64,000 nucleotides of DNA from Rhizophagus irregularis (taxonomy: Eukaryota; Glomeromycota; Glomeromycetes; Glomerales; Glomeraceae). The notes beneath the pieces are model-generated. The model did not search any database, had not been told where the DNA came from, and worked only from the letters and a program-made list of their open reading frames with translations. The stretch covers positions 2,992,001 to 3,056,000 of the forward strand of contig NC_089458.1 of assembly GCF_026210795.1 (NCBI RefSeq), in the 5' to 3' direction. Both the position numbers and the translations under genes were made by a program. Of this stretch, positions 15,184 through 56,483 are shown piece by piece. Every line of letters begins with the position of its first letter. The first letter of the stretch is position 1.

Positions 15184-15512
15184 AACTACCGTATATCGCG
15201 GCCATAAGTACCCCCTCCCCATGCATAGATCCCCCTTGAAAAATTTCATAAAATTGTATAAGTACGGGGGATATTTTACAATTATCTCGTGATCTAGTGA
15301 TCAGATTTGAGCCATCTTTTTTTGTTTGATAGGCTATCATTGAAATTTCTTGAAATAAAAAAAGTTATTAGTGAAATTGGCAGTAGATCGTGAAATATTT
15401 GCAAAAAAACGGAATTTTTAGACTTTGTTTAGTACCCGGGGGTACAGGGTCAAACCCCCGATTTTTGCAAGATACCCGGGGTACTGTGGCCCGCTATATA
15501 TATACGGTAGTT
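15184..15512. mobile_element. Short TIR element, ends AACTACCGTATAT
   Basis: The outer 13 bases AACTACCGTATAT (15184-15196) are inverted at 15500-15512. Similarity extends inward to GCGGCC...AGTACCCC on both sides. The GC-rich subterminal blocks (GTACCCGGGG) contrast with the AT-rich surroundings. The inside has the motif GATCTAGTGATCAGATTT at 15291-15308 that recurs in other elements here. There is no ORF. If the true ends are CCGTATAT, TA dinucleotides flank both sides; no longer target duplication is evident. Confidence 0.65.
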
Positions 15513-15983
15513 GGTGACAAAACCGAAATTTTTGGCAAAAAGAGTTTAGCCAGGTATCACTAACCTTCTCCCTCAATACCGACATTTTCATAGTACACTC
15601 TGATAAAGTAATAACACTTTTTGTTTGCTATAATACCTTTTTGGCTTTTTAGATTTTAAAACTCATAATTACCATTCAAACCAATAAATAAAACCTAAAT
15701 AACAAAAAAAATTAGTTACTAAATAATAAAAAAAATATAAAAAATAGCGAAATAAATTTAAACTAGAAAGACTTATCATAACTCTATAAGCCACTACTAA
15801 AGTCTAAATCCAGGCAGCTGAAACCTAAATAATAAAAAAAAATAAAATTAAACGAAAACAAAAAATAAAAAGTGAAATTGGTAATAAAACGAATTAATAT
15901 ACCTTTTCTAGAGTTTTATTTACATTTTAATATAGAATCATTAGTAATGTTCATTTTCCATTTTTGTAGGTATCAGCTTTGAA
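15513..15983. other. Gene-free region between two TIR elements
   Basis: A-rich sequence with no ORF. It holds one copy of the near-palindrome GAATCATTAGTAATGTTC at 15935-15952. Confidence 0.5.
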
Positions 15984-16508
15984 CACAGGTCAAAAAGTGA
16001 AAAATCAGGTACCAATCGGTCACCAATTAAGTAGCTGATTGGTGACTGATTGGTGACCGATTGGTGCCTGATTGGCATTTTCGCCAAATACCGTCACCAA
16101 TTAGGCAGTTTGCTAACTTTTGATCCAGTGATCAGAAAAGGATGAAATATAGCTCATTGGAATCGCCTCAGCAAGATGAATCTAATGGTAATAAAATCGC
16201 ATTTCTAGGATTAATACTTGATGAGAAATTAAGTAAAATATAAAAATAAAAATGTATCATTTATATTTTATTTAATTTTTTATTAACTATTAACCCTAGA
16301 GATGCCATTAGATTCGTCTTGTTGAGACGATTCCAATGAGCTATATTTCATTCTTTTCTGATCACTGGATCAAAAGTTAGCAAACTGCCTGATTGGTGAT
16401 GGTATTTGGCAAAAATGCCATTAAAGACCAATCGGTTACCAATCAGGTACCTGATTGGTGACCGATTGGTGACCGATTGATGCCTGATTTTTCACTTTTT
16501 GACCTGTG
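15984..16508. mobile_element. Long-inverted-repeat element, ends CACAGGTCAAAAAGTG
   Basis: About 525 bases whose two halves are largely inverted copies of each other. CACAGGTCAAAAAGTG starts at 15984 and its complement ends at 16508. Inside each arm are repeated CCAATCGGTCACC/GGTGACCGATTGG blocks, a GATCCAGTGATCAG box (16122-16135; complement at 16359-16372), and the ATTGGAATCG...TCTAATGG block that also occurs in the element at 47742. Both flanks begin with GAA, which could be a 3-base target duplication or chance. No ORF; non-autonomous. Confidence 0.75.
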
Positions 16509-17099
16509 GAATTTTCATTGGAATAAAGACAGATACATACATACTGGCAAGGATTTTTGTATAGAACGTTACTAACGTTCATTCTTTTTCTAGGTTATTT
16601 CTTTTTGTTTTTTTTCTATAACTGAAATGTATCTCTTGGATCTTATATTGAGATATTGCTCAAAGATGTAAAAAGTAAATAAATTTACCTTTTAAGAACA
16701 TTTACTAGCGTTCTTTTCAGGAATTCCTGCCTTTGATTTCAATATAACTCCGTAAATATTTGGCCAAAGACTTTTTCGTCTCCCTTTATTTAAACCAAAA
16801 TAACATACTATAAACTGTAAACATAAAAATTAAATAAAAACAAATACAAATACAAATACAAATACAAATACAAAAATAAAAACAAAAACAAAAATAAAAA
16901 CAAAAACAAAAATAAAAACAAAAACAAAAATAAAAACAAAAATAAAAATAAAAACAAAAACAAAAACAAAAATAAAAACAAAAATAAAAATAAAAATAAA
17001 AATAAAAATAAAAATAAAAATAAAAACAAAAATAAAAACAAAAATATTAATAAAATAAAATTAATAATAAAATATATGTCTAAAATTATAAATATAATT
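16509..17099. other. Gene-free region with hexamer-like microsatellite
   Basis: Apart from the A-rich repeat listed separately, it has two near-palindromic sites, GAACGTTACTAACGTTC (16564-16580) and GAACATTTACTAGCGTTC (16696-16713). Confidence 0.5.
16831..17045. repeat. Low-complexity (AAAAAC/AAAAAT/AAATAC)n array
   Basis: About 215 bases made only of A-runs broken every sixth base by C or T. It begins with AAATAC units and changes to mixed AAAAAC and AAAAAT units. The open frame on the minus strand encodes only a Phe-Leu-Tyr polymer and is not a gene. Confidence 0.9.
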
Positions 17100-17706
17100 G
17101 AGAACAGAATAAAAAATATTATTTTGGAACTATCAATCCAGTAATTTTTTGTTTATGTATAATGTAATCTTATCAACTTTCTTTTTTATTGGAATCTAAT
17201 CCTCATATATGTATTTCCTTACAAAGGTATCTATTGATTTTTTTACCAAAAAGACTGACTTTTGTAATCGATCTATTTTTTCTGTTTGTAAATCTTTAAC
17301 TTTATTTGAAAGTTTATTTGAAAGTTTATTTAAATTGTCCTTTACTTTGAATTCTGAAAGTTGATTTAAATTGTCCTTTCACTTAGATTCTGAAGTAATT
17401 TTATCTGTTCAAGAAATGCTTCTTCTTTTTTTTCATAAAATAACTTGTTCACATCTTGGTTTTCATATTAATTCTTTAAATACTAAAATAAATCGAATTA
17501 AAATATTAGCCATGAGTGTTTATACCTCAGCAAGAGATATCTTAAAGTCTTTTTGTAATTTTATTGTTAAAAAGGTTTTAACTTTCACTTCTAATGCCAA
17601 CTGTTGAAACTTTTGAAATTTTTCTGATTTTACTATAACTCCTAATATGTTTTGTAATACTTTTCTAATAAAATCTTTACCTTAACCTCTAATTTGTTTT
17701 TGTTTA

Positions 17707-18545
17707 AAACATATTAAACATGGGGCCCGAAACCTCTGAGAGGATTTCCGAAAGTTTCGGGTTTCGGAATATACGAATCGAAACCTCACCCGAAACCCTA
17801 AACAAGTTCCGAAACCCTAAATAAATCCCGAAACCCGAAACTAATTTCAGTTATCTCGAAACTAATCCCGATATCCAGAAACTCGTTGATTGGATAATCA
17901 CGTGGCAATTTAAATAATTAATAGATCGATATTCAATATATCGTGTTTGATAACCATCTTTACTTTTTACATTCAAGCCTTTCTGTCTCACATTAATTCA
18001 CCTCCCGATATGCTTTTTCTTTTAATTTTATTAATTTTCATTCTTCTTTTAATATAGATATCACTTCCCTAGTATAGTTTCTACCCCTTACTATGTTATG
18101 GACTAGCAGGCCATGCCTTCTCGTCTTCGGGAATAACTGAAAAGGTGGGCGGCTTCTAAGTGGGAGTTTCATACAATTATATATTTTGATTAGTATTCAT
18201 ATTTTATTATGTAATGTCTTAAATCTCTTGTATGACAGTCTATCTATAACATAAAAATAAAAAATAAAAATAAAAATGTTTGGACTTAATTGAGAAGTCT
18301 TTTTAATAAAATGTCAGATAGTAATTCAATATTGTTATAATTTTAGTTATTTTAATAAAAATTAATTAAGTAAATTAATAGGTTTCGGTTATATTTCGGT
18401 ATATAAAAGTTTCGGGAATTTCGGGTCAGTTTCGGGTTTTGAGTTTCGGGAAAAAAACACCCATCCCGAAACTAAGTTTCGGTATATACCGAAACCTAAA
18501 GGGTTTCGGGAGGTTTCAGTTTCGGGCCCCATGTTTAAAACATAT
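17707..18545. mobile_element. hAT-like non-autonomous TIR element (17715-18537) with 8-base target duplication
   Basis: Perfect 19-base terminal inverted repeats TAAACATGGGGCCCGAAAC at 17715-17733 and 18519-18537. They are flanked by the exact 8-base direct repeat AAACATAT at 17707-17714 and 18538-18545. Inside are many CCGAAACC/GGTTTCGG repeats next to both ends, and no ORF. The 8-base duplication and TIRs point to a hAT-type transposase, by family knowledge. It sits within the LINE remnant. Confidence 0.87.
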
Positions 18546-19018
18546 AATTATAGATTCTTTTATTGTAATCTCTAATATTTTTTCCCAAGCCACCTCATAT
18601 GCCTGACATTTAAATAAATGATTCTAATTTTCCTTCTTATTACATTTCATAATAAATTTCATTTCTTTGTAGAGTCTTGGTTTTTTTATTGCTAAAATAG
18701 ATTCTAAAGGGAAATAATTTTGCTATAAAAGTATCGTATGCTAATGTAGTGAAATCCCTTGCAATAATGAAAAATAAGCCAAGTAACTTTTCAGTCTATC
18801 TGATTAACATCTTTATAACATAATTCCTGATTATTTTTTAATAATAACCATTCAGTGGCTTCACCTATAGCTAATATTTTCAAAATAAATCTTCTAATAT
18901 TGATTTCAATAGGATTATCTATAAAAACAGGAAAATAAGATAATATATTATTAATAAAATCTACATTATTCCTAAATAAATTGTTTTCACATTGGCCTTT
19001 CTTTGCTAATTTATCAGC

Positions 19019-19331
19019 TATATCATAGGACCCCGGATATCTCCAAAACAGGTCATAAGTCACACTTTCGGCAGATTGGCCCATTTTTCAGGGGCTCAAA
19101 AAATCGTTTTTTGTAAATATCTCGGCATCCAGTGGTCCAATTTTGATGAACTTTTTTTTAAATTGTAGAGCTAAATGAGGGCTACAAAATAAAAAAAAGT
19201 TCATTAAAATTGAATTACTGGATGCTGAGATATTTACAAAAAACGATTTTTTGAGTTTCAGCAAAAAGGGGTGTTTTTGGCCAAAAGTCCATTATGACCT
19301 TTATATTAGATATCCGGGGTCCTTATATCAT
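19019..19331. mobile_element. hAT-like MITE (19027-19323) inside the LINE RNase H, 8-base target duplication
   Basis: A 297-base element with perfect 16-base TIRs AGGACCCCGGATATCT. Exact duplications TATATCAT lie at 19019-19026 and 19324-19331. Removing the element and one duplication restores the RNase H reading GND followed by IADKLAKKG on the minus strand, so this is an unambiguous insertion. Inside lies a second, long imperfect inverted repeat (CGTTTTTTGTAAATATCTCGGCATCCAGT and its partner), giving a strong hairpin. Confidence 0.93.
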
Positions 19332-19644
19332 TACCTATTATGCCACTATGACCTTTTATTTTAACCAGCTTTAAATTTATATTTGCTTTTCTGATCAACA
19401 TAATTATTTTAATAATGATTAAGTTATTAGTCTTTTTAAGTCATATTCTAGTTGTTAAATTAAAAGCTAAATTAATTGAATTTATAGCACCTAAGCTGTC
19501 TATATAAATAGTTACATTGGAATTTTCTGGTGCTGTCAACAATGCTAAGAAAATAGCTACTATTTCTGCTCTGGTTGATGATGGCTATATAAGCAATTTT
19601 TAAAGATTCATTATTATAAAAGACAATATTATTAGTGCAGAATT

Positions 19645-20174
19645 ATTAAAAGAAAAACTAAAAGAGTTACATATTTAAAGAACTTGATAATATATTTTTA
19701 TTGGTATTATGGAATCATTACCATAAAAAACTTTTTAATGAAAATGAAAAATTGTATTAATAATATTTACATCCTTATAAATAAAAAAATAAGCAGAGTT
19801 TAAAGAGTATACTAGAAATTAGCTGATTTAAAAGAGGGTAAGAGGAGGACTCTGAACAATACTAATACAACTCATATTTGAGTTTATATAAAGTTTATAT
19901 TAAAATTTTTCAAAAGTTGCATATTACAACGTATTTTCAAAATTTTGTTATTCTACATACCAGGACCCCGAACAATATATATATAGGTCAGATGAAAATT
20001 TCAAAATTTACTAAGATCAATAAGCAAATTATTTTCATTCTGCTAAGCAAACTCAAATTGTAACATTAAAATTTTTTGCACTACTAAGCAATTTATTTTA
20101 TGACTTTGTAAAATTAAAAAAAATTTCTTGCTAATTTTAATTATTTATATTATTACTTTATTGATAAATTGACA
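19645..20174. other. Gene-free region between LINE remnant and transposase pseudogene
   Basis: No supportable gene. A GGACCCCG sequence near 19961 resembles the end of the MITE at 19027 but lacks a partner. Confidence 0.45.
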
Positions 20175-23100
20175 TTATTGTATCATATTAATAATGCTAT
20201 TTTTAATAGTATCACGGTTAAAATAATTAAAAATACTACGTACTACTCCTGTTAAAGTTAGTGAACTATCACCAATTATTACTCCATTTGAATTAATATG
20301 ATATATAATATTTTGAGGACACTGATGAGTAAATAGTGTATAACCTTTCACAGTTTGACTTGCAAAAATATTGAGATGAATGGGCAAATATACTTGTAAT
20401 GAAATATAAGACAAATCTTCAATTGGAGTTACTGCATTTTGGCTATAACAATGGTTACCATAACCTTCATAATACATTGCTATTATTTTAGCAATACAAA
20501 TTTTTGTCCCATACAATGCAATTACATAGTCACTTTGTTGCAATGGAAAATCTTGAGTAATATTTGCCGATTCAACACATATAACTAAATTAAATAATAA
20601 ATTATTAATATTAAAAATTATATAAATAAATTACATGATTAACATTATATTTACTTTTATTTGTAACTTTATCAGTTTGTCTTTGCCTTGATAATTCAAA
20701 TTTATGTAAACTTGCAAGATTAGCTGTCATTGCCTTCCAATTTTCTTTCCATCGCTTTTCACGTTGTTTAATAAATCATACTGCCGGATCATCATTATTC
20801 GTAAGATGTGAAATTATATGACTAGCCCTATTTGGATTAATAGTATTTGTGTTTTCATGACCAATCATATATGTACGATTTTGTCTTTCAATTGGTCTTG
20901 AATTATATGCTTCATGATTCCTTCGTAATTTAATCATAACCAAATAATTCAACTCTTCTGTTGGAAAAATATATCTAATAGAAGAATCTTTCACGATTAT
21001 GTTAATACTTAATAATATACTATTAAAAACTTTGATAATATAGTAATATAATTAAAAGAAAAATTCATACCATGAATAAGTTGCTTATTATTAATTATTC
21101 TCATATTATCTAAAGATGAAATAACTTGGGTTTGCTGAATTTGATCATCAACATTCTTAATGTTCGATAAATCAAGAATATCATCAATTCTTTCAGTAGT
21201 ATGCTTAGATGCTTGACTAATTGCATCAGAAATTTCTCTATCGATTTCAAAGAATTCATTTGAATCATTTTCCAGTTCCAAAGTTGGCTTAATTCCAGTT
21301 GATACTTCCAAATTTTAATCATCTATCATTACAAATGGCAGTAATAGTGAATGATTCATATTTGAAGTAGGTTCCATATCAAGTGCTTTAGCAAGTTCAG
21401 ACGCCAATTTGTAAGAATGTTTAACAGCTGAAGTAATATCCTTGTCTGATGGCCAAGCACATAATTCTGCTAACTTGCTTGAATTAATATTTCCGATATT
21501 GTAGTTAAAATGGTAACCTATTTGAAAGAAATATAAGGGAAGGAAGATTTATAATTGGTTAACTAATAGTAATTTTTACTTTCTTTCATTAAAACTAGTA
21601 AATAGATAATAATTAATATTACAATAATACTAAAAGCATGCTTGCTTACATCACGAACTGATTTTTCTTTTTCCAATGTAACATTTTTTGTTCTTAACGC
21701 TTTGGTACATTGAGAAATTTTTGGAACTAATTGTAACAATTCTGAATAATTAAAATCAGAATTAATTTGACGCGCCATGCCAAAAAAGTGTTCACAAGCC
21801 TCTGATCCATGCATCTATGGTAAAAATGGATAATTTGGGTAATATTCCCAATGTGCTTTTACCAACAAGATCATAGACTTCACAAGAGAAACAAAAATTG
21901 CAAAACTTTGATCAGCTAAAAAGTTCTTGCTAACAGAAATAAAATTAGGATACTTTTCACTCATATTTGTTACATATTCTTTCCAAAATCGTAAAGTGAA
22001 AAAGGATGTTATTGACATTTTAATTCTTTTTAATGGTTATTACTTATGGCCAAGTAGCTATCGATAAGTTCGCCTAATTTTCAAATTATAATTTAATAAT
22101 AAAAAAAAAGTACCATTAAATAATTATAACAAAATTATTTTTTATCTAATCCATTATGAAAAGATATACAAAAAGTCCTCACATATCTTCTTCAGTATCG
22201 TGAGCTTCATGACAATTTTGTAAATTTCATGAACAAAATACACAATACGCTGCACTATCGTCTTGACGGTCAAGCTTTATTATATCATAACGATACATTA
22301 CAGAATTAGAAAGATTTGACAATTTTAATAATTGTTCAAATCATGCAGTTGAACTTTCAAGGGTAAGAAGACGGACACCAGACATAATTGCATTACGGCC
22401 AGTTTTTTTTGCGTGCTTAGGGTCTTGTACGCGAATAACAGATCCTACTTTTGGAAAAATTGGGCAGCTGAAATCAACCCCAAGTTTATTATTTTAAAAG
22501 TTAACCGTTCGTCTGTTGAATATGACTGAATTGCAACTTGAGCTTTAAATTCAACAATAGCACCATCTGATCCAATTGATAAAATTGGAAGGTTAAGTTG
22601 CAGTGCTATTTGAGTTAACAATTTTTGATGAAAGCTGGTTATTATCAACTTATTATCAGTTCTGTTATTGGCAATTAATGCAATAACTACTGGAGGGAAA
22701 TTCGGCAATGGTATCTAATAAATTGAATAGTAAGTATTTGTCATTTACGTTATGTAATTGCTTAAATGAACAATAATTACCACTCAATTACCTGCAATAT
22801 ATAAGCGCGCACATCTTTCGCAATTGCTTTTTTTATTTTAATATCATTAATAATCGGTTGAATATCTTCGTATGCATTAATTTTAGTTTGTTCAACTAAT
22901 AGTGTTGATCCAACGATACAGCCTAAAACGGGATTATAATGAAGAGCAGGCTTCAACTTAGTGTTATCAGACATAGCAACAATAGGCCCCCGATAATTTA
23001 ATGTATCAATTAGCCTTTTAAATTTGGCAACGTTTTCAAATGAGAGGTTAGAATTTGTGAGTGTGTCTTCATTATTAGCTCGAAGTTTACTAATTTTATG

Positions 23101-24189
23101 AAAATTGTTAATTATTTTAGGGAAAAATATTAAAGATTAACTAATAAATAAGCAAGTAAAAAATACCGTATATTTTGAATTGTACGTCCTTCTAAATTTT
23201 AATGAAAAAGATTAAGAGCCCGAGTACTAAAACTTCCTAATATAATAAGAAAGTTTGTAAAATGTTCATTATATTGAATATTTTACTTGCCTTTATTATT
23301 ATCTTTACGAACTGCAGCTTGAACTATTACTTCACAAAGTCCTGTAAATACAGATTTTTCTTTAAATGCACCCTTGTTTGCTTTATCTGCTAATGTAATC
23401 CATATATTTGTATCATAATTATCCTTGATAATAGACCAAATCTCAATAAGATCCTGATTTTGCAAATATTTTTTTAAAGAATTATTCTCGAAATAGAATT
23501 TTGGTGTAAATTTAAGATTTTTGGATGCTGGTTTTGGTATAGTAAGGCGATGTGCTAAAATAGGATCGCATTTGAGTGTATAACATTCATGACAAATTAT
23601 TTTTTCAGAATCAGAATATCCTGTACATTTCTTAGCACATACAGCATTACCTATTAACAATATTTGGAAAAGATATTCATTAATTGATCGATGAAGATTA
23701 CAAAAATATAAATAATAATACTTACAATCTTTATCAATATGCCATTGAGATTCTGCATAAATTTTCTGGTTTAATGCACGTTTCTGAGATGGTTTAAGTT
23801 TTTTTCTTGTAAATTTGTTAGAAAATTTTTCAGGATACATTTCTTTAGCAATTACTTCAACACACTGAGCTCCACCATAACATGCTGGTATCCTATCAAC
23901 TAGAGCTCTGAATTTGACCTGATGGATTGGGTGATCCGATGGGTTGACCTGAAAAATTCAGGTCAGGTAGCAGATTTAATAATCCGACCTCGGGTCAGGT
24001 CAGCCACAGTCAGGTACCTGACCTGACCCATTGACCCAACATATTTCAGTCAAAAATAAGACGTTTCAGCATTTTATATATATAAAAAAATGCCAAACTG
24101 ACCTGAATCCGACGTTTTTTCATTAAAAATAATTACAAAAACGTCTTTTTTTATTAAAAACGTTAGGTTTAATTAAATAAACAAAAAAA

Positions 24190-24430
24190 AAATGTTTTTT
24201 TATTAAAAAATGTCAAACCTGACGTTTTCTATTAAAAGAAACAAAAAAAATCATTTCTTTAATTAAAAAACATCGAATCTGACATTTTTTATTAAAGAAA
24301 CAAAAAAAAATTGTTTCTTTAATTTAAAAATGTCGAACCTGACGTTTTTTCATTTAAAAAAACAAAAAAAGTTTCTTTAATTTAAAAATGTCGGGTCTGA
24401 CATTTTTCATTAGAAGAAACAAAAAAAATA
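24190..24430. repeat. Imperfect tandem array, about 60-base unit
   Basis: Four to five degenerate units, each with a TGTCRAACCTGACRTTTTT core, a RAAGAAACAAAAAAAA run and TTTCTTTAATT. The unit boundaries drift, so the copy number is approximate. Confidence 0.65.
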
Positions 24431-24559
24431 CGTTTTGGCGTAATAAAAAGTGCTGAAAAGTACTTTTCCATAAAATAATTGTAAAAAAAAAACGTTCAGC
24501 ATTTTTTTTTATAATTTAATTATAAAAAACGCTAAAATGTTTTTTTCGACCCAAAATAT

Positions 24560-24830
24560 ATCAGGTTAATGAGTACGGATTCAACTAGCCGTTCCGCTTG
24601 CCAAAACCTCTCCAAAATCCTGCGATAAATTTCGGCAAGATTTTACTATATGTTTACTATAGTTTCGGCAGGGTTTTAGCAATTTCGACAAATGGAGTTT
24701 CGGCATTTCGGCAAAGTTTCGGCAGGATTTTTAATATAATTTAATATAGTTTCGACATTTTCCGTATAGGTTTCGGCAGTTATTAAGAAGATTTCGGCAA
24801 GCAACCTTAATCTGAACTGGACCTGTGATA
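24560..24830. repeat. TTTCGGCA-rich repeat block
   Basis: At least nine copies of TTTCGGCA or TTTCGACA spaced 15-40 bases apart, between GCCAAAACCTC and GGCAAGCAACC. This may be a subterminal-repeat remnant of a separate element nested inside the 23901-25459 insertion. No clear termini were found. Confidence 0.5.
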
Positions 24831-24868
24831 TTTGGGTCGATCGCAGTCGTAACTAAACCTTGCCTGGG

Positions 24869-25408
24869 TACGGGATGGTTAGGTCGGTCTGGCATGGGAC
24901 CTATAAGTCCTATTGAACGGACCTGCGGACCTGGTCTTGACCAAGTTATTGTAATAATTAAATATAAAAAAAGTGAGTTGCGATATCGGGATTCACTTTT
25001 TTATATTGATTTTATATAAAAAAAGTGAGTTGCGGTATCGCGATTCACTTTTTTATATTGATTTTATATAAAAAAAGTGAGTTGCAGTATCGCGATTCAC
25101 TTTTTTATATTGATTTTAATATAAAAATGTGAATCGCAATATCGTAACTCATTTTTTATATAATTTTAATAATATAAAAATTGTATTGCAATATTGCAGT
25201 GCACTTTTTTATAATTTATAATTACTTAAAATCAAATTTACAGCAAATTATACATATATAATTTAAACATATAGATCTCTTATAACCTTATGCTAGGACT
25301 TTTTGCAGGCCCTGTCGCTTCGGTCTAAAATTTGGTCCTAAAGATCTGCAGCCAGGTTCTAGGACCAGGTCTTTAGGTCCAGGACCTAGGACTTTACCAT
25401 CCCTACTT
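24869..25408. mobile_element. Probable nested element with GGGATGG ends
   Basis: GGTACGGGATGGTTAGG at about 24867 and the complement of ATGGTAAAGTCCTAGG at about 25390-25405 form imperfect inverted ends. Both sides have many GGTCC/GGACC words inside (GGACCTATAAGTCC; GGTCCAGGACCTAGG). Boundaries are approximate and no exact target duplication was seen. Confidence 0.4.
24961..25130. repeat. Tandem repeat, three copies of a ~54-base hairpin unit
   Basis: Three near-identical head-to-tail units, each AAAAAAAGTGAGTTGCG, ATATCG or GTATCGCG, ATTCACTTTTTTATATTG. Each unit is itself an imperfect palindrome (GTGAGTTGC...GATTCAC). A fourth unit appears in inverted sense just after (GTGAATCGCAATATCG, about 25120). 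Confidence 0.85.
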
Positions 25409-25919
25409 GGGTCAGGTCAAGTCAATTACTCGACCTAACCTAACCTATTCAGAGCTCTACTATCAACATATTTTGCAATTAAATCTGAACACAATCCTAA
25501 ACGTGGCTTTCTTTTTCTACTAGTTTTATTAGTAATTGCTGAGCTGATAATCTCATATTAGCATTTTCTTATCCATTATTAATTGTTTTACCTCGCATTT
25601 TAAATACCACTGTAATAATATCATCATCATCTATTACATCTTCTACCTCACTTTCCTAATCATTCTAATCATCATCTGAATCTACATTATCATCATCTTC
25701 TTTATCAGCTTTTATAGAATTAAAAAACACAAAATACTTTTTTGTTAGATTTCATTTGCATATAGGCCAATTTGCATAGCGATTAATATAGTCTTCGTCA
25801 TATTTCCTATTAAGTTTTATTGCAACTCCACATATACAAATTACCTTTTTAGCACGTATAACCTTGGCAACAAATGGATGTTTTTGTAAACGTTGTTTTG
25901 AGTATTTCCAACCACCCAT

Positions 25920-32466: not shown

Positions 32467-32506
<40 letters not shown>

Positions 32507-33155: not shown

Positions 33156-33175
33156 TATGTGTCACAAAAAAAAAT

Positions 33176-36570: not shown

Positions 36571-36597
36571 TCACGTGGATGAGTTTAATCCACGTGA
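36571..36597. promoter_or_regulatory. Inverted pair of CACGTG (E-box/G-box) sites in a perfect hairpin
   Basis: TCACGTGGAT at 36571-36580 and its exact reverse complement ATCCACGTGA at 36588-36597 are separated by 7 bases. CACGTG is the known core site of bHLH regulators such as Pho4 and Cbf1. No gene is close, so a regulatory role is only possible. Confidence 0.35.
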
Positions 36598-42000: not shown

Positions 42001-42039
42001 ATACTGAGGATGACTCAGTTACATATGGTAACAATGTGT

Positions 42040-42700: not shown

Positions 42701-42737
42701 TTAATTTATACTAATATCTGCTTTCTTTCTATAAAAG

Positions 42738-44217: not shown

Positions 44218-46742
44218 GTATTTACATTAGGCGCACACTTCACATATATTTTACTTCTGTGTATTACTGTTTTGGAGTTAAGCTTGAGAAATTAATCAAA
44301 ATAGAGTAGACATTATTGGTTGTGAAGCCAGGCCAGTCTTTAGTTGCATGGGCAGTAAGTGCTAGAATTCGATTACAAGAAATATTAGCCAGGCAGAAAA
44401 CTAGTATATACCACCAACATTGCTTATTTGCTAAGATGTTTAATTCTGCCTATTATCATCCTAGAATCCATAAAGGCCAAATGGCTATTTGAGCCAGAAA
44501 AAACATATTTTATTGAATGGTATATGAGATTAAATCTGAGAACTTGATGAAATATCATTGGGATAATGAATGCTCTAAAGCTTAAACTCAAAATGGAAGT
44601 GCATTATGATTTTTAAAATCACAAGCAGTAAGTTACATCTTATCTAAAGAATTTATCAAAATTATAGAAAAAGATCTGTTTTATTAGCAAAATAAGCTTA
44701 AAAAGCAATTATAAATGATAATACTCTTAATCATCAGAACAACTTTATTGTACCAAAAACTAGGTGTTATAAGAAATAGCAATTGTCTGATAGACTAGTT
44801 ACAGCAAAAAATACTTTTGTAAATACTTTATTACTAGATATATATCTTAAAAAAGTCCAATTATGAAAATAATTAGAAATGTAATATATATATATATAAT
44901 TTATTTTAAAATTATTATATCAGCAAAGCTATATAATTATTAAAAGTTTAGAGTGAATTAATATATTAAAATAGCCACTAAATTCTGAATATTACTACTA
45001 TATTGATAAAAAATATTATAACTTTAAAAACTTCATTAGAATTTTAAAATATAAGAAATATAAATGTAAATTATTAGGTATATAATATATATGTAATTTA
45101 CTGATAAACAATTTAAAATTTCTATTGTTTATTTAAAAAGAAAACTATTATAAATTTATTAGATTTGAGCATCTATAAACTTGTAACTATAGATAATATT
45201 TTTTAATATAAAAATTTTAAAAATAAGTGTGATAGTAATTATAAATAGATTGTGATTATATAGGATAGATTTTATTAATAAAATATTTTAAATATCTAGC
45301 ATATCTAGCTGATGTAAGTATATAATATATAATAGAATATAATTATAATAAAAATGACTATAAAAAATTATAAAAATTATATGTTAAGTTGTAATTTTAT
45401 TAAAATTAATTATAAAAAATAATTTACTACTATTTAATTTATTAAATAAAATTAACTTTAATATAATATATTTACAATTTTAAGTAAATTTCAAATCACT
45501 TCAAACTTAAAAAAATTTTAAATTAATTTAATTTAAATTTAAAATAATTTTACTACTATAGTTACTGAAAATATTATATGCAAATTATTTTTATATTCAA
45601 ATTATTTTATGTATTATTATTAGATTATTTATTTAATAGTTAAATATTAAATTTTAAATATATTATACTTATATAAATTAAGAAATTAATAAATTATTAT
45701 GTATTATATCAAGAAAATTTCTAATTTTAATTAGAGAAAAAATTCTTTTCATAATGAATAAGAGGTAGCAAATAGGATTTTTAATATAAATTTCAAATAT
45801 TTAAATTAATTAACAAAAATAAAAATTATGGAATGTAATATACTGTAATACTAAATAAACCTAACTTAATCTAATTTTAGTCTAATCCTAATTTCTAATA
45901 AATATTAGATAAAAGAATTTCCTTTCTGGTTAAATGTAATTTTTTTACTTTAGTAAAAAAAATAACTTCTTAGTAAATAAAGTTATTTAGTAAAGTAAAA
46001 TTCATTTAGATTTTATTTTTATAAGATTTTAATTAATATTTATAAAAGTATTTGTATTTTTTATAATAAATTACCATTTTTTTTTTATTTATAAATTTAA
46101 AGTATAATTTTGGTATTTTGATTAAATAAAATTATTTAATAGATGTATAATTTAATTTTTTATAAAGTCATAATAATTATTTCTAAAGTAATATATATTT
46201 TTGTAACTGAATTAACTTTTAATTTCTGAATTTTTACATTTTTGATTAGTAATTTTAAAGCATAATTTTAATATTTTAGTCAAAATAAATTGCTTTTTAT
46301 TATTTAAATATAGTTGATTAATAAAATCAAAACTACTTGTAATTTAATTCTTGTAAGATTTTTAATTGATATTTATAGAAAAATAAAATTAACATTTATA
46401 TATATATTTATTTAGTATATATAAACTTCAGAATATAATTTTGATACTTTAATTAAAGTAAAATACCTTTTATTAGGACTCCATCTATTACTAAAATATA
46501 TTACTGATAGAAATTTATTCATATAAAAGATGAAACTTTACCTTAGGAATTGTTTAAATTCTGTTGGTTAATTAACTAAAAAGAAAAAAAATCATAACAA
46601 TGTAACATAAAATTTCCAAAATCTTTAAAAAGTTTTATATATAAATCTTCTATAGGGTAACCTATCTTAATAGTAGGTGGGATCTTCTTTTATTACTTAA
46701 ATAAAATTATTTAAAAGAGTTAAAACTATATATAATATATAT
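44218..46742. other. AT-rich desert with coding debris at its left edge
   Basis: Up to about 44800 there are short protein-like pieces, possibly more of the preceding pseudogene or a retroelement. From there to 46742 only A/T-rich noncoding sequence is seen. Confidence 0.5.
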
Positions 46743-46902
46743 GGGGTCTTTGCAATAGAAAGATACAAAACTCAAAAAAAATTTAAATTTTACTTTATAT
46801 GCTAATTATGTTTTTTTTACTGAAATAAACTGAATGCAAATTTAATATTAATTCAATTTTTAATTTTTTTTGAGTTTCGTACCTTTCTATTGCAAAGATC
46901 CT
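46743..46902. mobile_element. 160-base MITE with GGTCTTTGCAATAGAAAG ends
   Basis: Left end GGGGTCTTTGCAATAGAAAG (46743-) and right end complementary to AGGATCTTTGCAATAGAAAG (to 46902). The pairing continues through TACRAAACTCAAAAAAAATT, so about 45 bases are inverted with four or five mismatches. Both flanks are ATATAT, consistent with insertion into a TA-rich target. No ORF. Confidence 0.75.
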
Positions 46903-47741
46903 ATATATTAATTTTTAAATTGATATTTATGAAGAAATTAGTATTTTTTATATTAAATAGTACTAATTTTTAATCTTTAAATTTTTATTATTTTAATAAA
47001 AAAAATACATTAATTTTAAATAAAAATTCAAGTTGAATAAACTATAAAGCCATATAAACTTGATTTATGATTATTATAATATAAAAATTTTATCAATAAT
47101 TCAGCAATTTGACTTAATTTTTTTTTTCAAAAATTTTATATGTAAAATTTTTTTTCAATTTTTAAAAAATTTTCATTTAGTATAATAATAATATAAAAAA
47201 ATCTTTTTTTAAAACTTAATAAAACCTGATTTGGCTGAATTACAAAACCAATTTTTATCACTTGTATCATTTAACTAAAATTAAATAAAAAAATTTTACT
47301 ATAAATTTATAAAGATAATTAAATTTACTTTTACTTTTAAATTAATATATAAATATGAAAAATTGTTATCATAAATGGAATTGATAAATATTTGATTATA
47401 TGAATGGTTTATATTAGCTATTTATTTATATATTATATTGATTAAATAATTAAATATTATTGATTTTTTTTATTCAATCTACTTTTTTAATAAAACTATT
47501 TTCAATTTTAATATTCTTAAATTCATAGTAATTTAAATAATAATAAAGAAAAAGTAAAAGCAAAGATAAGATGAATTAAAAATCTGTATAAAAAAATTTT
47601 CAGTATTTTTTAAAAGATCATTAATGATAAAAAGACTTTAGTTTTTATAATACTATTAATCAATAGATTATTAAAAAAAATTTATTTGATAATAGCAAGG
47701 TGAAACTTTAATTTCTTTATAGTTAGATAGTATTAAAAATA
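46903..47741. other. AT-rich spacer
   Basis: No gene or repeat beyond poly-A/T runs. Confidence 0.6.
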
Positions 47742-48701
47742 CAGTCAACTCCCTCTATAGTCACTCCCGTTATAGTCACATTCTACTATATAGTCACACC
47801 AGTTGAATGTTCAAAACACTTTATTATTAAAATCTATCCTATATAGTCACAATCTATCTATAGTCACTATCACACCTATTCTCAAAAATCTTATATTAAA
47901 AAGAACCGTTTATAATCACAGTTATATAAAGAATATATTAAATAACTTGGCATCTAATAATCGTACAAAGATGTACTATAGCTTGTTAGAATCGTCTCAC
48001 TGAGACAAATCGAATGGTAGTAGTTTTATCCTTTTACAATTACTGGCTGATGAGTTATTCAACAAAATGTTTAACAACTGCATTATAATATTTCTTGATT
48101 TACGTTTACTGCGCTATTTAACATTTTGCTAAATTTCTCAGTACCTAGTAATTGTAAAAAGACGATTAATAGCTCGTTGGAATCGCCTCATCAAAACGAA
48201 TCGAATGGTGGTAAGCTCATCTCTCTGTGATTAATATTGACGGAGTTATTACTTAAAAACTATTTAATATTTTTAATTTCAGAAATTGATCTAGTGATTG
48301 GATTTCGATGTATCTTATACCATTAGATTCGTTTCATCAAGACGAATCGAATGGTAGTAAGATAGTCTCTCTAGGATCAATATTGGCAGAGTTATTACAC
48401 AAAAACCATTAATATTTTTTTAATTTCGGAAATTAATCTAGTGATTGGATTTCGATGTATTTTATACCATTAGAACCGTCTCATCAAGACGAATCGAATG
48501 GCGGTAAGATCATCTCTCTACGATTAATATTGGCGGAGTTATGATACAATAAAGTTTTAAGTATAATTCTGGTCAAAATTATGTTAATTTTTGGCCGGAA
48601 TTATGATATACTAATATAAGAAATTTTTTATATAGTCACATCTCTTTATAATCACCAAATATGGACTGTCCCAAATGTGTGACTATAAAGAGAGTTGACT
48701 G
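47742..48701. mobile_element. Pogo/Tc1-like non-autonomous element, 960 bases, TA duplications
   Basis: Ends CAGTCAACTCCCTCTATAGT (47742) and complement of CAGTCAACTCTCTTTATAGT (to 48701), flanked by TA on both sides. CAGT...ACTG ends with a TA duplication are characteristic of pogo-like Tc1/mariner elements. Subterminal TATAGTCAC repeats continue on both sides. The interior has the 146-base tandem units listed separately. The short open frames inside (47803, 48661) are not transposases. Confidence 0.85.
47989..48560. repeat. Tandem array of ~146-base units inside the 47742 element
   Basis: The block GAATCGYCTCATCAAGACGA followed by ATCGAATGG starts at 47989, 48180, 48326 and 48473. The last three are spaced 146 and 147 bases. 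Units contain TCTCTMBGATYAATATTGRC, GAGTTATTAC and GATCTAGTGATTGGATTTCG. The same block occurs in inverted pair in the element at 15984-16508. Confidence 0.85.
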
Positions 48702-49122
48702 TATTTTTTTGTTAGGATATAAAAGATATAAGAATCAAATAATACATAAAAGAATTAAGTTTTTCATTAAAAGTAATAAGTATAATATTACTTTATTAAA
48801 TAAAACTAACATAATAGCAAGTAGAATTTTCATAAAAATTAAAAAAGTGAAACTTTAAGAATTATTATAAAATAGAATATTATACAAAAATATATAAGAT
48901 AAATGCTGAAAAAAGAAATTAAATTAACAAATTTTTTTTTAAAATAACAAATGTTCTGAATCAAATAATCAGATTTACATCTATTTTACTTATAAATTTT
49001 TTTAAAAAAAATTTTAATTTGATCTTTTTTTCTAATTTACCTTATATATTGCATACTAATTAATTATAATAGTTAATTTATTTATTTGTATACTAATTAT
49101 TATAATGAATAATATTTATAAC
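48702..49122. other. AT-rich spacer between elements
   Basis: No supportable feature. Confidence 0.6.
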
Positions 49123-49557
49123 TATGGTGGCTGTCACCTATAAACAACAATAGTCCGAAATTTTGAAATTTATTTATTTATATTGTGTAACTTATGTTTT
49201 AAAGTACTTTGTCAAAATATTAATTGCTGCGTGAGCGGCAAAATTTTTTTTTTGCCATATTACATGGAATTCTTGTGGATTTCCATGGAATTTTTGTAAA
49301 ATCCATAAAAATTACATGAAAACTAGTCCGAAATTTTATATTTTTATTATTGCTACTTATTAAAATTATCCAACTTTAGCCTATAATATTAATTAAAATT
49401 CTTATTAAATTCTATAAAATAATCCGATAGAAATGTTCAGTACATGTTGCTATATCATTTTATCAGTTTAGTTTTTTCTTTTTACTATTCAATTTACAAT
49501 TTATAAAAATTTGAAGTCACTTAATATTAGTGTGGTTTATAGGTGACAGCCACCATA
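49123..49557. mobile_element. 435-base MITE with TATGGTGGCTGTCACCTATA ends
   Basis: TATGGTGGCTGTCACCTATA at 49123-49142 is perfectly inverted at 49538-49557, with pairing continuing for a further 3 bases and beyond with mismatches. The outermost TA may be the target duplication, as in Tc1/mariner-type elements. The two AGTCCGAAATTTT copies inside (about 49152 and 49325) and TTTCCATGGAA are further internal repeats. No ORF. Confidence 0.85.
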
Positions 49558-49623
49558 TTACTTTTAATTTTAATTAATAAGTATCTTTTTAATTTTAAAT
49601 TTGCAAACTTTGAATTATTATTA

Positions 49624-49795
49624 CAGTTAAACTTTGATATAGTGAACCCTTGATATAGTGAATTTTTCAGACAACTATAATAAATTTCCCCTTGTTATAA
49701 CGAATTAACCAATCAAATCTCTTAAAATTTTCACTATAGTCTTATAGTAAAGTTGAGGTCTGGACCCTAGGATTCATTATAACAAGGGTTGACTG
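49624..49795. mobile_element. 172-base pogo-like MITE, TA duplications
   Basis: Left end CAGTTAAACTTTGATATAGT (49624) and right end complementary to CAGTCAACCCTTGTTATAAT (to 49795) form imperfect TIRs. TA lies on each side. Repeated GATATAGTGAA/TTATAACGAA blocks sit next to the ends. This is a deletion derivative by its size. Confidence 0.75.
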
Positions 49796-49823
49796 TATAT
49801 ATTTATTAAATTTCAAAATAATA

Positions 49824-49882
49824 GTTCAAATTACTAGTGTAATTTAAACTAAATCAGCCTGAATTACACTAGTAATTTGAAC
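49824..49882. repeat. Perfect 21-base hairpin
   Basis: GTTCAAATTACTAGTGTAAT plus one T at 49824-49844 is exactly inverted at 49862-49882 with a 17-base loop. No ORF, no U-run after it. Probably a tiny foldback element. Confidence 0.85.
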
Positions 49883-51643
49883 CTAGTTCTTTTATTTCAG
49901 TTGCCAGAGTATTCAATTACTTAATGATTATCTTCAGCTATTATTTCATTTGCTAAAATTCATATAATATATGATTTATTTTAATTGGTTAAAATTTAGC
50001 AGTTGACAAATAAAAATTTACCTCTAGTTGACAAGCAAAATTTTTCTATAAATATAATGCTACATTTGACCTGTATTTTTCAATTTTCTATAAAATTGAT
50101 CAGCATTATGAAAATTTTGGCCAGAATTATGAATTATTGATCGGCAGAATTTTGGGCAACTTTAATTATATATATATATTCATTTAATAAGAATACTGCG
50201 CCATGATTTTTTTTTCAATCTTAATAAAAAAAATTGGCTTTTTTTTGTAGCATTTCCATTTCCAGTAACTGTTACTACTTTATTAATACATTTTATTATT
50301 TTTAATAAAGTTTGGATTATGTAAATCAATAAATCATCAGGTGTATAAATTTTTAATATCCAGATCATTAAATCTAATAAAAACAATAGATCTTAAAAAT
50401 AAATCTAGTTAGTAATTATTATTGATTAATACCTAACACTAAACTTAATCTTAACTTTTAAATAAATTAATGCCAATTAAAGAAAATTATAATTCTGTCC
50501 TCCTGTGAATATAACTTGTTTTGGTTAGAATTTTTTAAAAAAAGTGCCATTATAATATGTAGTAAATAATGCAGATGTAACGTTTAAATGCAAGATTAAC
50601 TAGATTTAAGCTTTTTTTTTTCGGGAAAGTTTTCCTAGTTTGAACGAAAATTTTACGGCGAAATTTCCCGTAAATTTTATTTGCGTATGACTTTTACCAC
50701 GAGAAAGTTCATAACTAAATCATTATAATTTTATAAGATCATCATAATATTTTCATTAAATTAATTTTAACGATTGTAACTTTTTAATCTACGGAGAACG
50801 CGAATTAATTAACATTGTCAGACTAAATAAATGTCTGTGTTGTAACGGAAATTTTCGGTAAATGTACAGAAGTTATCGAGTGCCACAAACTAAATTTGAG
50901 TGTTATTATTTTCTGGCTGTGTTATTGTCATACAAAATGTCAAAAACCGAAAATTTACATGAAACTTAAATATTTAATTATTTTAAAATTTCCTCAAACA
51001 AGAAATTGGCGCACAAAAAAAAAATGTGTCATCGTGATGAACTGATCTATGTATTATTAGGTAATTATGTTACTTATTATTTGCAAGCGAAAAGAAAATT
51101 TAAAAAATTTTATTAGTAAACATCGTTTTCGAGCGATTTAAAAAATTTAAAGAATTCTTGACATTTGATCCATTATGTATCAAATAAAGGGCAATAAAGC
51201 AAATCATCCGAAAATTGATAAATTTTGAAACAGAGGCTCAAACAAAAAAATTTAACCTGCATTCGAAATAATGACTTTTTTGTATAATTTTCATTTTTTA
51301 AACGTATTGTAATTCATTAAATCAAAACATTCATGTATATCATTAAAATCTCTTCGTTTTTTAATAAGTTAGCTTCCAAAATGGACGTTTACTTTATTCC
51401 AAAATTATACTAGCATTGTACTATATTCTTACACATTTTAGGAAACCTAACATGATACGTCGTTTTAAACTATCGATGTTACACCAGAAAAAAAATTTTT
51501 TTCTTACAAATAAATACTCTACAAAATTTTCTTGCTTTCCAACAATTCGAAATTTCGAATAAAAACATTTCACAAAACTAATTATTCTGTACAATATTCA
51601 TTTTGAAATTCAAAAAAATTGTAAACTACCTCCCGAATTAAAC
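49883..51643. other. Region upstream of malic enzyme
   Basis: No gene is supported. The last few hundred bases should be the malic enzyme promoter and 5' leader; sequence there is less AT-rich with TTTCCCG/CGGAAA words, but no named site is evident. Confidence 0.5.
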
Positions 51644-53913
51644 ATGTCTAAGTATACCAACGGAAGCAGTCATCGCAATATCGATAGGATCGAAAGTATT
51701 TCAAGATCACCTTACCTTAATCAAGGTAATTAATTGATTTTTTATTCATTAAATTTAACATAACTTCTCTAAAACAATCAAAATCATTGATGTACAATAA
51801 AGGTACTACTGCGCCTCATTCAATTCGAAATGCTTTGCATACTTCCGGCCTTATGCCATTTGCTGTAGAAAGCGTCGATCAACAAAAGAAGAGAGCTTTA
51901 GCTCAATTAAGATCTAAGAATACTGATTTAGAAAAATACATTTTTCTTGCATGGCTTAGAAATACTAATGTTAGCTTATTTTATCGTATTGTTATTGGTG
52001 AATTGGAGGTAAATTCTTATTCCTGATGATCCTAATTATCATTTTTTTTAGAGTTATATTGAAAATTTTTTTTATATTAGGAAATTACTCCCCTTATCTA
52101 CACTCCAACTGTCGGTACCGCCTGTTTGGAATACTCTCATATTTCTCCTTTCCTTGCCCCACCAGGAATACCAGACGGTCTTTATCTTTCTTTAAATGAT
52201 CTTCCAAATTTAACCCAAATAATCAAAACCTATCGTCCATATCCATACGACGATACTTTAACTCCACAAATTGCTGTGATTACTGACGGATCAAGAATTT
52301 TGGGATTGGGTGATTTGGGTGTAAATGGTATGGGGATTCCCGTCGGAAAACTTCAATTGTACGTTGCGGCAGCAGGAATTGATCCTCGACGTACTTTGCC
52401 AATCACTCTTGATCTTGGTACTAATAATGAAAAGAATTTAAAAGATGAGTTCTACCTCGGTCTTCGAAGTAAGAGGGTAGATGACGATCAATTTTATTCG
52501 TTCGTAGATGCTGTCATGAAATCATTGCTTAAAGTTTATCCCGAACTGTTGATTCAATTCGAAGATTTCTCATCTGAACATGTGGGCATAATTTGATTGT
52601 TATTTATTTTTTTGAAAAAATTTTGTAAATATAATGTAAACGGTTTATTGGTTTCTTTTTTAGGCATTTGATTTATTGTCCAAATATCGAGAAAATACTT
52701 TCTGTTTTAATGATGATATTCAAGGAACAGGAGCTGTTGTTTTATCTGGTTTTATCAATGCTGTAAAACTTGTAGAAAAGGATGTTCATCCAACAAAACA
52801 TCGATTATTGTTTTTCGGTGCTGGATCCGCTGGTGTTGGTGTTGCCAAACAACTCCTTGAATTTTTCAAGGTAGAACATGGAATGTCTGAAGAGGAAGCA
52901 AAGAGATTGGTTTGGTTGGTAGACACAAAGGTTTGTATTTACATCCTTCTCATGATTTATATTTTTACTTCGTTACTTACCTTTATCTTTCATTTCTTTC
53001 ATTTGATAGGGTCTTGTAACATTAGACCGTGGTGACAATTTGGCTAAACACAAAGTATATTTTGCCCGTGATGATAATGATGGAAATCAATTTAAAACTC
53101 TTGAAGAAGTTATAGAATATGTCAAACCAACTGCACTTATAGGATTATCATCAACAGGCGGAGTATTTAATGAAAAAATTATTAATAGAATGGCTGAATT
53201 AAATAAAAACCCAATTATCTTCCCATTATCGAATCCAAAGGTTAATGCCGAATGTACTTTCGAAGATGTAAATATATTTTTTTTTATTTATTTGTTATGA
53301 TTTGTTATCAATACATTTATATTAAATAATCAATAATTAGGCAATGAAGGGGACGGACAATCGTGTGATATTCGCTTCCGGTACAGCATTCCCTGAATAT
53401 ACTGTACCAGAAACTGGTAAAACTAAATATCCGGGACAAGGAAATAATATGTATATTTTGTAAGTAAAAAAAAAAATTTTATAATTATTTTATTATCGCG
53501 TAAAATTTACTAATTACCTTTTATTGAATTTTATTAGCCCTGGTTTAGGTTTAGGTGCAATTCTTGCTAAGCCAAAAGTCATCACTGATAAACAAATATA
53601 TATATCTGCATCTGCATTATCTACTTCGTTAACCGAGGAGGAAAAATCATTAGAACTTCTTTATCCTGTTGTAAGTCGTATTCGTCATGTATCAGCTCAA
53701 GTTGCAGCTGCTGTAATTGTCGAAACGGTGGAAGAAGGTTTAGCACGTGATAAACAAATTATTGAGATGGTACAAAATGATATTGAAGTATTGAAAACTC
53801 GAAAAGGAAAAGAATGGGATAATTTGGTTAAATTTGTTCAAGAAAATATGTGGGATCCTGATAGTGAAAAATTCTTCAATACTGAAGAACTTTTGAGTAA
53901 AAGTAAAATGTAA
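51644..53913 (+). CDS. MAE1: Malic enzyme (NAD(P)-dependent, decarboxylating), 602 residues
   Basis: Converts malate to pyruvate and CO2 with reduction of NAD(P), feeding pyruvate metabolism and, for NADP forms, lipid synthesis. Seven exons (51644-51725, 51803-52008, 52081-52581, 52664-52930, 53010-53267, 53341-53459, 53538-53913) total 1809 bases. Family landmarks: PLIYTPTVGTAC with the catalytic Tyr, VITDGSRILGLGDLGVNGMG, IDPRRTLPITLDLGTNN, FEDFSSEHAFDLL and FNDDIQGTGAVVLSG with the metal ligands Glu-Asp and Asp, GAGSAGVGVAKQL as dinucleotide fold, VKPTALIGLSSTGGVF, PLSNP, FASGTAFP and NNMYIFPGLGLGAI. Length fits the eukaryotic ~60 kDa class. The N-terminus (MSKYTNGSSHRNIDRIES) is not a clear mitochondrial presequence, so location is open, as is NAD versus NADP preference. 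Confidence 0.96.
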
Positions 53914-55743
53914 ATTAATTATTTGTTAATTATTTTAATTATTTTCATGTTTGTTATAGAGAACATTTGTAATTTTTTTCATAAGTTTATATTGTTTTAT
54001 AAATAAATTTTAATAGTTTCGTTATTAAACGAAATTTTGTATGATTAAATCATAAAATCAATCCAATATAACCATATAATCTTTTAAAAATGATTTTATA
54101 ACATGTATGATTTTTGCACTTTGAGTTTGAGCAAATATTGAGATTTATGAATATTTCTTTAAAGCTTTAAATAATATTACAGATGGTAATAAAGAAATTG
54201 ATGATATACAGACATAATACTTTAAGTATCTGCATATATATAATATGTTTTAATATATTGTAATTGTTTATTGTTTACTATGTTAAATGCTATTATAAAT
54301 ATAAGTTTTATTTAACTAAATTCAATCAATTAAAAAAGTAAATAAATATTTGTATAAATTTTAGTAATATTTTAAATTATAATTTATTATTTATATTATT
54401 TATTAAATATTTATTTGTTTTAAAATAATTTAAATACTCAAATAAAATAATAAAATAGCTAAAGTATTTAAATTTCTGTAATAATTTATTTATATTTTAA
54501 AATTCTTTAAATTATGCAAATTAAGAATTATATATAAATCTTAAAATTTTACTTTTAAAATATTTTAACTTGCAGCAGAAGTACACTACCATTACAGTAT
54601 CAGTAGACCTTAATAAGGTGATGATAAAACTATAGACTGGTGAAGTATAGACTGCTCCCCTTGAAGGACTACCTATATGATAGTTTTTGGCCAATTAAAA
54701 AGAAAAGAATGAAAAGATTTTAGGTTGTGTTAATAGGAGTTCCTATTTCTACCACTACAGCATCCTTATATCTGGCTAATTCTGTTTATTTCATTCTCAT
54801 ATTCACTGGATGTAAAGCATTTAAATTAATTCAAGATAGGGGCATTTGCAAATTGATAACTTATAATAAAATCATTGGTAAGACTTTCAGTTTAAATGAA
54901 TTTCTAGTGATTGGAAAAGGTATTATTTTTCTAACTTAAAGTAAAGAAAAAACTGGCATTAAAAGGTGAAGCAAAATAACAAATCTAAAGTATTTCAGAA
55001 AACTACTAATATATTTCAGTTGAGTTACAATTTTGGCCAATATTCTATTAATACTAAGAAAATTAGAAGTATTTTGAAAAATAAAATAGATTGTCTTAAT
55101 TTTAGAAGTGTTATTGTTATAAGGTATTTTATTACTAATTGTTTTATTTTATTTCTATTTTGTTTTTATTTTGTTTTTTTGTTTTATTTCTTTTGGTTTG
55201 AATAGCATCATTTGATACTAAATAATATATCTAGATATTTTCATTACATAATAAAAGTGAGAAGTTTTTCAAAATTTGTAATTTTGTATAACTTTCAAAT
55301 TATTAATAAAGTTTTGACCAGTTATAAAAAAAATATTTTAACTAAATATTTAATTTTTAATCTTTATATTAATATATTAATTATATACATATTTTAATAT
55401 TATATATATGTATTTTCTTTTTTTTTATTTTAAAAAATATCATAATTTTATTATATTATATTTATAAGTAAAAATAAATAATGTTATAATTTTTATTTAA
55501 TGGTATATAAAAAAAACTGCAACGATGAACGATCAGCGGAAATCTTATGTGTTTAATCGCCATTTTTTCTTCTAATATATTGTATTAAATAAATTTAATA
55601 ATTATAATAACTTTATTAATAATATTAAATATTATTGTTCAATTTAATATTACATGTAAAAAAAATATAAATTTTAGATTGGTAAATTATAAATTATTAA
55701 ATTATTAATTATTTCAATTCATAAAGCATAATTCTAACTAATA
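53914..55743. other. Gene-poor region downstream of malic enzyme
   Basis: Only the malic enzyme 3' region and AT-rich spacer. Open frames at 54727 and 54966 have no protein-like features. Confidence 0.55.
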
Positions 55744-56483
55744 CAGTGCGGTACCTCTATAATAGGTACCCCTTATATCTTATGATCTAATGGTCAGAAT
55801 TTTATAAAATTTTAAAATTAGATAGCTTTTAAAAAGATAAATACATTAAGCAAATAAAAAATTTTCTCAATTTTTTTGCTGACATAATACAAAATCACAT
55901 GACTTAAAATAAATTTGATTGGCTAATATAATACTTAATGTTAATTAGAATTATGCATAATTTTTTATATATAATTTATTATTCATTATAATTATTTAAA
56001 AGTAATTTGATTAAGTATATCATCAGGAACTTTTCTATGGGATTTATATTTTTTTAGCAAGTTTTCCTGTAATTTCTTTTTGAGAAATAGGCATAATATA
56101 ATTTGTAATAAATAAAAACTACCAAAGTTTTTTTTTAATTTTTTTCAAAATTTTTTTAACAAAGCATGGGTAAATTTATAAACTAAAATGATTTATTTGA
56201 ATAAGCACTATCAAATGATTATTATTTTTTATATTACACAAAAGTCACTTATTCTCAAATTTTTCCTATCTATCATAATAAATTACCCGAACTTCAAACT
56301 TATGTAACACTAGCAAAATTTATTATTTTTTAATCTAACCCGATAAGTTTAAAAGCTCTTGATATGCTTTATTAAAATTATCGGTTAGAATTTTAAAATA
56401 TTATTTTTTTGTTAATGTGACATTTTTTTGAAAATGTCATATTATGACTATAAAATTGGGTCAGTTATAGAGGTACCGCACTG
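55744..56483. mobile_element. 740-base TIR element, ends CAGTGCGGTACCTCTATAA, TA duplications
   Basis: CAGTGCGGTACCTCTATAA at 55744-55762 is perfectly inverted at 56465-56483, with TA immediately outside both ends. Ends CAGT...ACTG and the TA target fit pogo/Tc1-mariner non-autonomous elements. Inside near the left end is GATCTAATGGTCAG (55784-55797), a variant of the motif shared by other elements here. No transposase ORF. Confidence 0.87.

Follow-up and report, generated by a model that had tools for sequence, protein, structure and literature searches.

A hairpin module shared by terminal-inverted-repeat elements with different tips and flanks in Rhizophagus irregularis

Motif sites and TIR elements in the window

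The window (the whole 64,000-base stretch of Rhizophagus irregularis DNA that was analysed, positions 2992001-3056000 of its contig) is AT-rich and holds five elements bounded by terminal inverted repeats (TIRs), A to E, which together cover ~2,850 bases. An 18-base consensus motif occurs seven times in the window with up to three mismatches, at 15291, 16122, 16358-16371 (minus strand), 19126, 48288, 48435 and 55784, and all seven sites fall within these five elements, in keeping with a sequence-only reading that had listed the motif at the same places (giving the inverted site as 16359). The motif is also more frequent than composition predicts, with seven sites in the window compared to a mean of 0.33 and a maximum of 2 in 100 dinucleotide shuffles, and 1,561 matches (833+728, up to two mismatches) in the genome (146.7 Mb, 32 contigs) compared to 16 (8+8) for the same pattern read backwards. 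Two longer patterns from the arms (34 and 32 bases, up to three mismatches) matched the genome 36 and 235 times, and their controls not at all. The motif proved to be the best-kept part of one arm of a larger hairpin module, in which two inverted arms of ~35-45 bases surround a small palindromic centre, spanning ~140 bases in total.

Element A (15189-15507) has the tip CCGTATATCGCGG and is flanked on both sides by TA (15187-15188 and 15508-15509). For its family the tip is CCGTATATCGCGGGCC, and TA was present at both ends in 26 of the 29 copies in which the ends were located (one of 30 copies being dropped as its ends were not), such that the earlier assignment of A to the 8-base duplication type was not upheld. 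The hairpin module of A lies at 15274-15413 on the plus strand, with a centre of the GAGCT type and the motif in its left arm (15291-15308, plus strand), and is decayed in the window copy. Element B (15984-16508; tip CACAGGTC) is flanked by a 3-bp duplication, GAA. A 3-bp duplication was found in 24 of 26 anchored copies (four of 30 were unanchored and dropped), with none of the 26 agreeing at 4 bp, while pairing left and right flanks from different copies gave 3-bp agreement in only 22 of 650 combinations. The first long arm of B (16073-16188, plus strand), containing the motif at 16122, resembles D and the outside families L7 and G described below and is 94% complementary to the second (16305-16420, minus strand), which carries the motif at 16358-16371. 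The subterminal parts of B at 16003-16073 and 16427-16478 consist of repeated self-complementary ATTGGTGACCGATTGG-like units.

Element C (19027-19323) has the tip AGGACCCCGGATATC and an 8-bp duplication, TATATCAT (19019-19026 and 19324-19331), and such a duplication was present in nine of 11 copies, with a tenth having it with one mismatch and the eleventh lacking it. Its module, of the GAGCT type, lies at 19108-19252 on the plus strand with the motif at 19126. Element D (47742-48701; tip CAGTCAACTCCCTCTATAG) has TA on both sides, as did 5/5 of the D copies fetched, and on the plus strand contains a unit resembling B over ~135 bases (48122-48259; score 74 compared to a top shuffle of 40) together with tandem units of the GTCTC type (48234-48581) that hold the motifs at 48288 and 48435. 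Element E (55744-56483; tip CAGTGCGGTACCTCTATAA) likewise has TA on both sides, again seen in 5/5 copies fetched, and has a possible degenerate arm at 55776-55826 (plus strand) around the motif at 55784, for which the match is marginal.

All five elements belong to multi-copy TIR families, the first-look candidates, with 40 scored per search, being 141 for A, 1093 for B, 878 for C, 1524 for D and 71 for E. The claim that the five differ in their ends and duplication types stood for most of the ends but less fully for D and E, whose tips are alike (CAGT-N6-CCTCTATA) and so cannot count as wholly separate. Within the window alone three flank types are represented (TA, 3 bp and 8 bp), although TA, like the TTAA found elsewhere, might belong to the tips as invariant letters instead of being duplicated target sequence. 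No open frame of at least 150 aa lies inside A to E. Elsewhere in the window the open frames at 52081-52596 and 58001-58723 resemble, by eye in translation, fragments of malic enzyme and sirtuin.

Scanning identified three more TIR elements, raising TIR coverage of the window to ~5,660 bases. These lie at 17715-18537 (TTAAACATGGGGCCCG, with the 8-bp duplication AAACATAT), at 23901-25459 (1559 bp, TAGAGCTCTGAATTTG, with the 8-bp duplication CTATCAAC) and at 49125-49555 (TATGGTGGCTGTCACC, TA-flanked). None of the three had a module match better than E 2.6, the first and third being without the module and the second without a clear one, and the module is thus not universal.

Related families outside the window

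Further families were reached via the motif or the module, such that their number is no measure of how frequent the module is among TIR elements. TIRs are present in F, G, L7, X, Y, Y2, Y3 and Z, and in H (L143 and L144). Family F (L109 and L112) has the tip TAGTGTTCCGCA and an 8-bp duplication matching at 8/8 positions in L109 and 6/8 in L112. L7 has the tips TATAGTTGTTTCCGAAATT and TATACTTGTGTCCGAAATT with a duplication of 8/8 in L007 and L008, and X (L054) has the tip AGGACTCTGG and a duplication of 8/8, both judged by eye. Family G is represented by two copies at different sites (L110 and L111) that are 92% identical, each with the tip AGGACCC and a duplication matching at 7/8, and combines C-like tips with a hairpin of the L7 type. 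G shows the reverse mix, with C-like tips over the other hairpin type.

Using a doubled hairpin (L004) as query brought in the TTAA-tipped families Y, Y2, Y3 and Z, with a possible fifth in L156, each having two to four hairpins. TTAA was found at both tips in 8/11 of these loci (L004, with flank, and L147, L148, L150, L151, L152, L155 and L156), the other three being L149, which is interrupted by a stretch of N, L153 and L154. Two TTAA-tipped copies with four hairpins, L147 347-1136 and L148 324-1114, are 99.6% identical (786/789), which probably reflects recent movement. Overall four flank types are represented (TA, TTAA, 3 bp and 8 bp), and by their centres the hairpins are of the GAGCT type in A, C, F, X and the TTAA families and of the GTCTC type in B, D, G and L7.

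Sequence comparison of the hairpin cores

In pairwise alignments with 60 shuffles per pair, A and C share ~150 bases and B and D ~135, while L7 (the L007 element), which resembles both hairpin types, has stretches in common with each of A to D. Taken by themselves the pairs A-B, A-D and B-C were within the range of shuffles (3/60, 4/60 and 16/60 as high), and E had nothing above shuffles against A, B, C or D (60 per pair), its match to L7 being near the top of the shuffles (2/60 as high) in a stretch away from the motif. Among 14 elements 33 of 91 pairs matched at E<=1e-6, of which 21 cross flank types, and 44 of 91 at E<=1e-3, while 30 shuffled sets gave no pair at 1e-6 and a mean of 1.3 (maximum 4) at 1e-3. 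Twelve of the 14 have a partner at E<=1e-6, E and H having none. The best pairs across flank types were C and Y (77% over 164 bp, E 1e-30) and D and L7, a TA/8-bp pair (72% over 356 bp, E 3e-39). In the cross-family matches inspected the similarity lay in the module, with the best-pair stretches lying inside the hairpin region at 91-225 of 329 bases in A, 72-232 of 297 in C and 79-224 of 276 in F, and the matches not reaching the tips in these three. Between the TTAA families, which are relatives, the likeness extends past one hairpin (over 452 bases in Y and Y2, for instance).

The GAGCT-type hairpin was also described by a hidden Markov model (HMM), built each time without the family being scored, which gave 51.6 bits for A (best of 200 shuffles 4.2), 101.2 for C, 85.9 for F, 86.6 for X and 87.8 for Y, with the score for C not fully independent since the tips of X, which was in the model, and C are similar. 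For families never included the scores were 37.3 for H, 30.9 for L7, 22.1 for G, 14.9 for L121, 5.0 for E (top shuffle 3.8), 3.4 for B and 3.1 for D. The best of 200 shuffles varied between 2.9 and 8.3 depending on the target, and the observed score was equalled by a shuffle only for B (1/200) and D (8/200). As B and D score near the shuffles, they are joined to the others via L7, G and each other. By these comparisons A to D clearly carry the module, with E marginal. The earlier proposal of a common interior thus held in that elements with unrelated ends and different duplications share one, but what is shared is a hairpin module of ~140 bases rather than a short motif, and it is clear in four of the five. 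The sequences show homologous modules within TIR elements of different tips and flanks (TA, TTAA, 3 bp and 8 bp).

Structure and variation of the hairpin

Across an alignment of 23 modules (K_b and N_a, 2/25, being omitted) 80.8% of cells pair, and the covariation score was 0.195 compared to 0.155 when shuffled (0/500 as high) and at most 0.087 in slid controls, the structure scored having come from folding the consensus, which favours it over slid controls (RNAalifold on the alignment gave none). Pairs changed on both sides numbered 20, which was not unusual (110/500 shuffles as high). Between the arms G-U and A-C cells numbered 148 and 88, a difference set aside because orientation was picked by similarity and three column pairs account for much of it, holding ~39 of the 148 G-U cells (13, 16 and 12, depending on ties). 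Folding as single-stranded DNA went beyond shuffles for C (z -16.8), Y (-4.9) and one D unit (-3.8) but was no better than shuffles for the window A copy (-1.4) and F (0.2), while folding as RNA exceeded shuffles in 8/9 stretches (z -2.2 to -18.9), the exception being the window A copy (-1.0). The inverted layout is common, yet decays.

Variation among copies differed between families. In A the module (0.031) was as variable as the sequence beside it (0.032 and 0.037), while in B the arms (0.022 and 0.019) were less variable than the sequence beside them (0.047 and 0.043). A search of Rfam at the gathering threshold gave no match (nine sources, 80,242 bases). Ten miRNA-like sequences given for R. 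irregularis in the part of the published account drawn on here (PMC6399891) had best matches of 4 to 9 mismatches against the window and nine loci, which for these ten indicates no link to the module. A 24-base miRNA-like sequence from the same account has a single exact match in the genome and no further match with one mismatch, in keeping with the genome being that of R. irregularis.

Origin of the shared core

The reading that best accounts for these observations, with a probability of roughly 70%, is that hairpin cores of common descent acquired different ends through rare exchanges and were then multiplied by different transposases. On a few occasions a core would have gained new transposon ends, either by one small element inserting into another or, alternatively, by template switching while a transposon gap is repaired, with each new combination of end and core then amplified in trans by the transposase recognising the ends. 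In a tree of the 23 GAGCT-type modules (H being treated as its own class, K_a left unlabelled and K_b and N_a, 2/25, excluded) branch support was mixed and the modules grouped by family, with four changes of flank type compared to a mean of 7.63 when shuffled (0/1000 as low), indicating that cores were mostly inherited with their ends and rarely switched. At L065 (~1501-2034) a B-family copy interrupts an A-family copy within its hairpin module, showing that insertion of one element into another does occur. Capture or exchange of the module was the best fit among the origins proposed earlier, with no donor or exchange intermediate caught among the elements examined. No autonomous element bearing such ends came to light, and three loci fetched from 22 piggyBac-domain matches had neither TTAATTCGTGAT ends nor a clear module.

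Other explanations would place the module under selection or give it mobility of its own. The module might be kept as a cis-acting part, such as a transposition enhancer, origin, promoter or source of small RNA, and hence appear in different families, a role of the kind proposed for the interior of coral elements by their authors in the passages drawn on here (PMC2872659). The pairing and covariation of the arms and the lower variation of the arms in B are in keeping with this, but in A copies the module is no less variable than its surroundings, pairs with both partners altered are no more frequent than in shuffles, the window A copy folds poorly and F does not fold as DNA, and neither Rfam nor the miRNA-like sequences considered provide a match. 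Furthermore, the covariation may reflect arm-to-arm conversion as well as selection, and selection of this sort is considered unlikely. That the hairpin moves independently, as a small element which has entered other TIR elements time and again, is improbable to a similar degree. Its tandem occurrence in D, L7, Y and Z, its presence in unrelated hosts and the precedent of the B copy inside an A module would all fit, but no target duplications were noticed around hairpins within their hosts (by reading, non-systematically), and TIRs bound all five window cases and the settled outside families (H, L121, L153 and L154 aside).

Descent of all the elements from one old family with degenerated ends is very improbable. 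The tips of D and E are alike, as are those of C, X and G, but each window family keeps consistent tips over many copies together with its own flank type, and in A, C and F the matches between families end before the tips. A single degenerate family was rejected since 3- and 8-bp duplications occur in families with well-kept, unrelated tips. A chance likeness, or one due to the low complexity of AT-rich DNA, may hold for E, whose similarity to A to D is not above shuffles, but as a general account has almost no probability in view of the shuffle controls for the motif, the pairs, the HMM and the family set, and was rejected for A to D on those controls. A fragment of parasite sequence, also suggested earlier, found no support in the phage, plasmid, viral-contig and prokaryote collections searched. 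The C module had no blastn match to phage and plasmid records, and exact degenerate arm patterns had none in viral contigs and prokaryote genomes (non-eukaryote collections). Similar-looking hairpin arms may occur in animal repeats, and a degenerate pattern modelled on arms of this kind found nothing in viral contigs.

Going beyond exchange of cores of common descent, the hairpin core might be a selfish unit persisting and spreading via the ends of successive superfamilies (four flank types in this genome), though this is rather unlikely. If true, the interior would be the lasting lineage and transposon ends its replaceable vehicles.

Relation to known elements and significance

Miniature inverted-repeat transposable elements (MITEs) are of several types, including hAT-, pogo/Tc1-, CACTA- and piggyBac/TTAA-type, defined by the transposase that recognises their ends, and for the elements described here flank length and tips would be the only grounds for assigning a superfamily. 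They are like MITEs generally in being short, TIR-bounded and multi-copy with target duplications. A like principle, one core combined with different ends, applies to SINE families that share a central domain, but SINEs are retroposons copied through RNA while the fungal elements are DNA elements with TIRs. Foldback and palindromic elements likewise have long inverted arms with hairpin potential, but here unrelated TIRs enclose the hairpin, which is internal.

MITE families usually have dissimilar interiors (PMC2872659), unlike the interiors here, which are shared across types. The closest precedent is provided by the CMITEs of the coral Acropora, which in the passages drawn on are described as ~100 bp elements with TTAA duplications, tied to piggyBac-like elements, in which families with different TIRs have one interior that is better conserved than the TIRs and the origin of which was unknown to the authors, with tandem arrays and a composite made by insertion also reported (Wang et al., 2010, PMC2872659). 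Compared by description alone, the elements here are alike in having different TIRs over a common interior, tandem copies and an insertion composite, but differ in that the fungal interior, an inverted module able to form a hairpin, is found with four flank types. MITE subfamilies of Anopheles gambiae differ in their interiors although their TIRs are almost alike, and where the interiors of MITEs come from is called controversial (PMC3212995). C and G, with near-identical TIRs and differing interiors, are like these subfamilies, while one interior under unrelated TIRs is not described in the passages on them (PMC3212995). In the open-access literature searched no prior report was found of one interior across flank types, or of such an interior in this fungus, and what would be new relative to the CMITE precedent is a shared interior that appears to cross flank types, in R. 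irregularis.

Two-thirds of the transposable elements of this fungus are unclassified, according to the part of the source drawn on (PMC11075540). MITE families are sorted by their ends and duplications, with interiors usually treated as filler, and for repeat annotation the shared core is a trap, as clustering based on interiors would merge unrelated families. The comparisons made here suggest that in the course of evolution the interiors of elements have been paired with various ends, and a core that crosses transposase types would offer a traceable marker of how MITE families are assembled.
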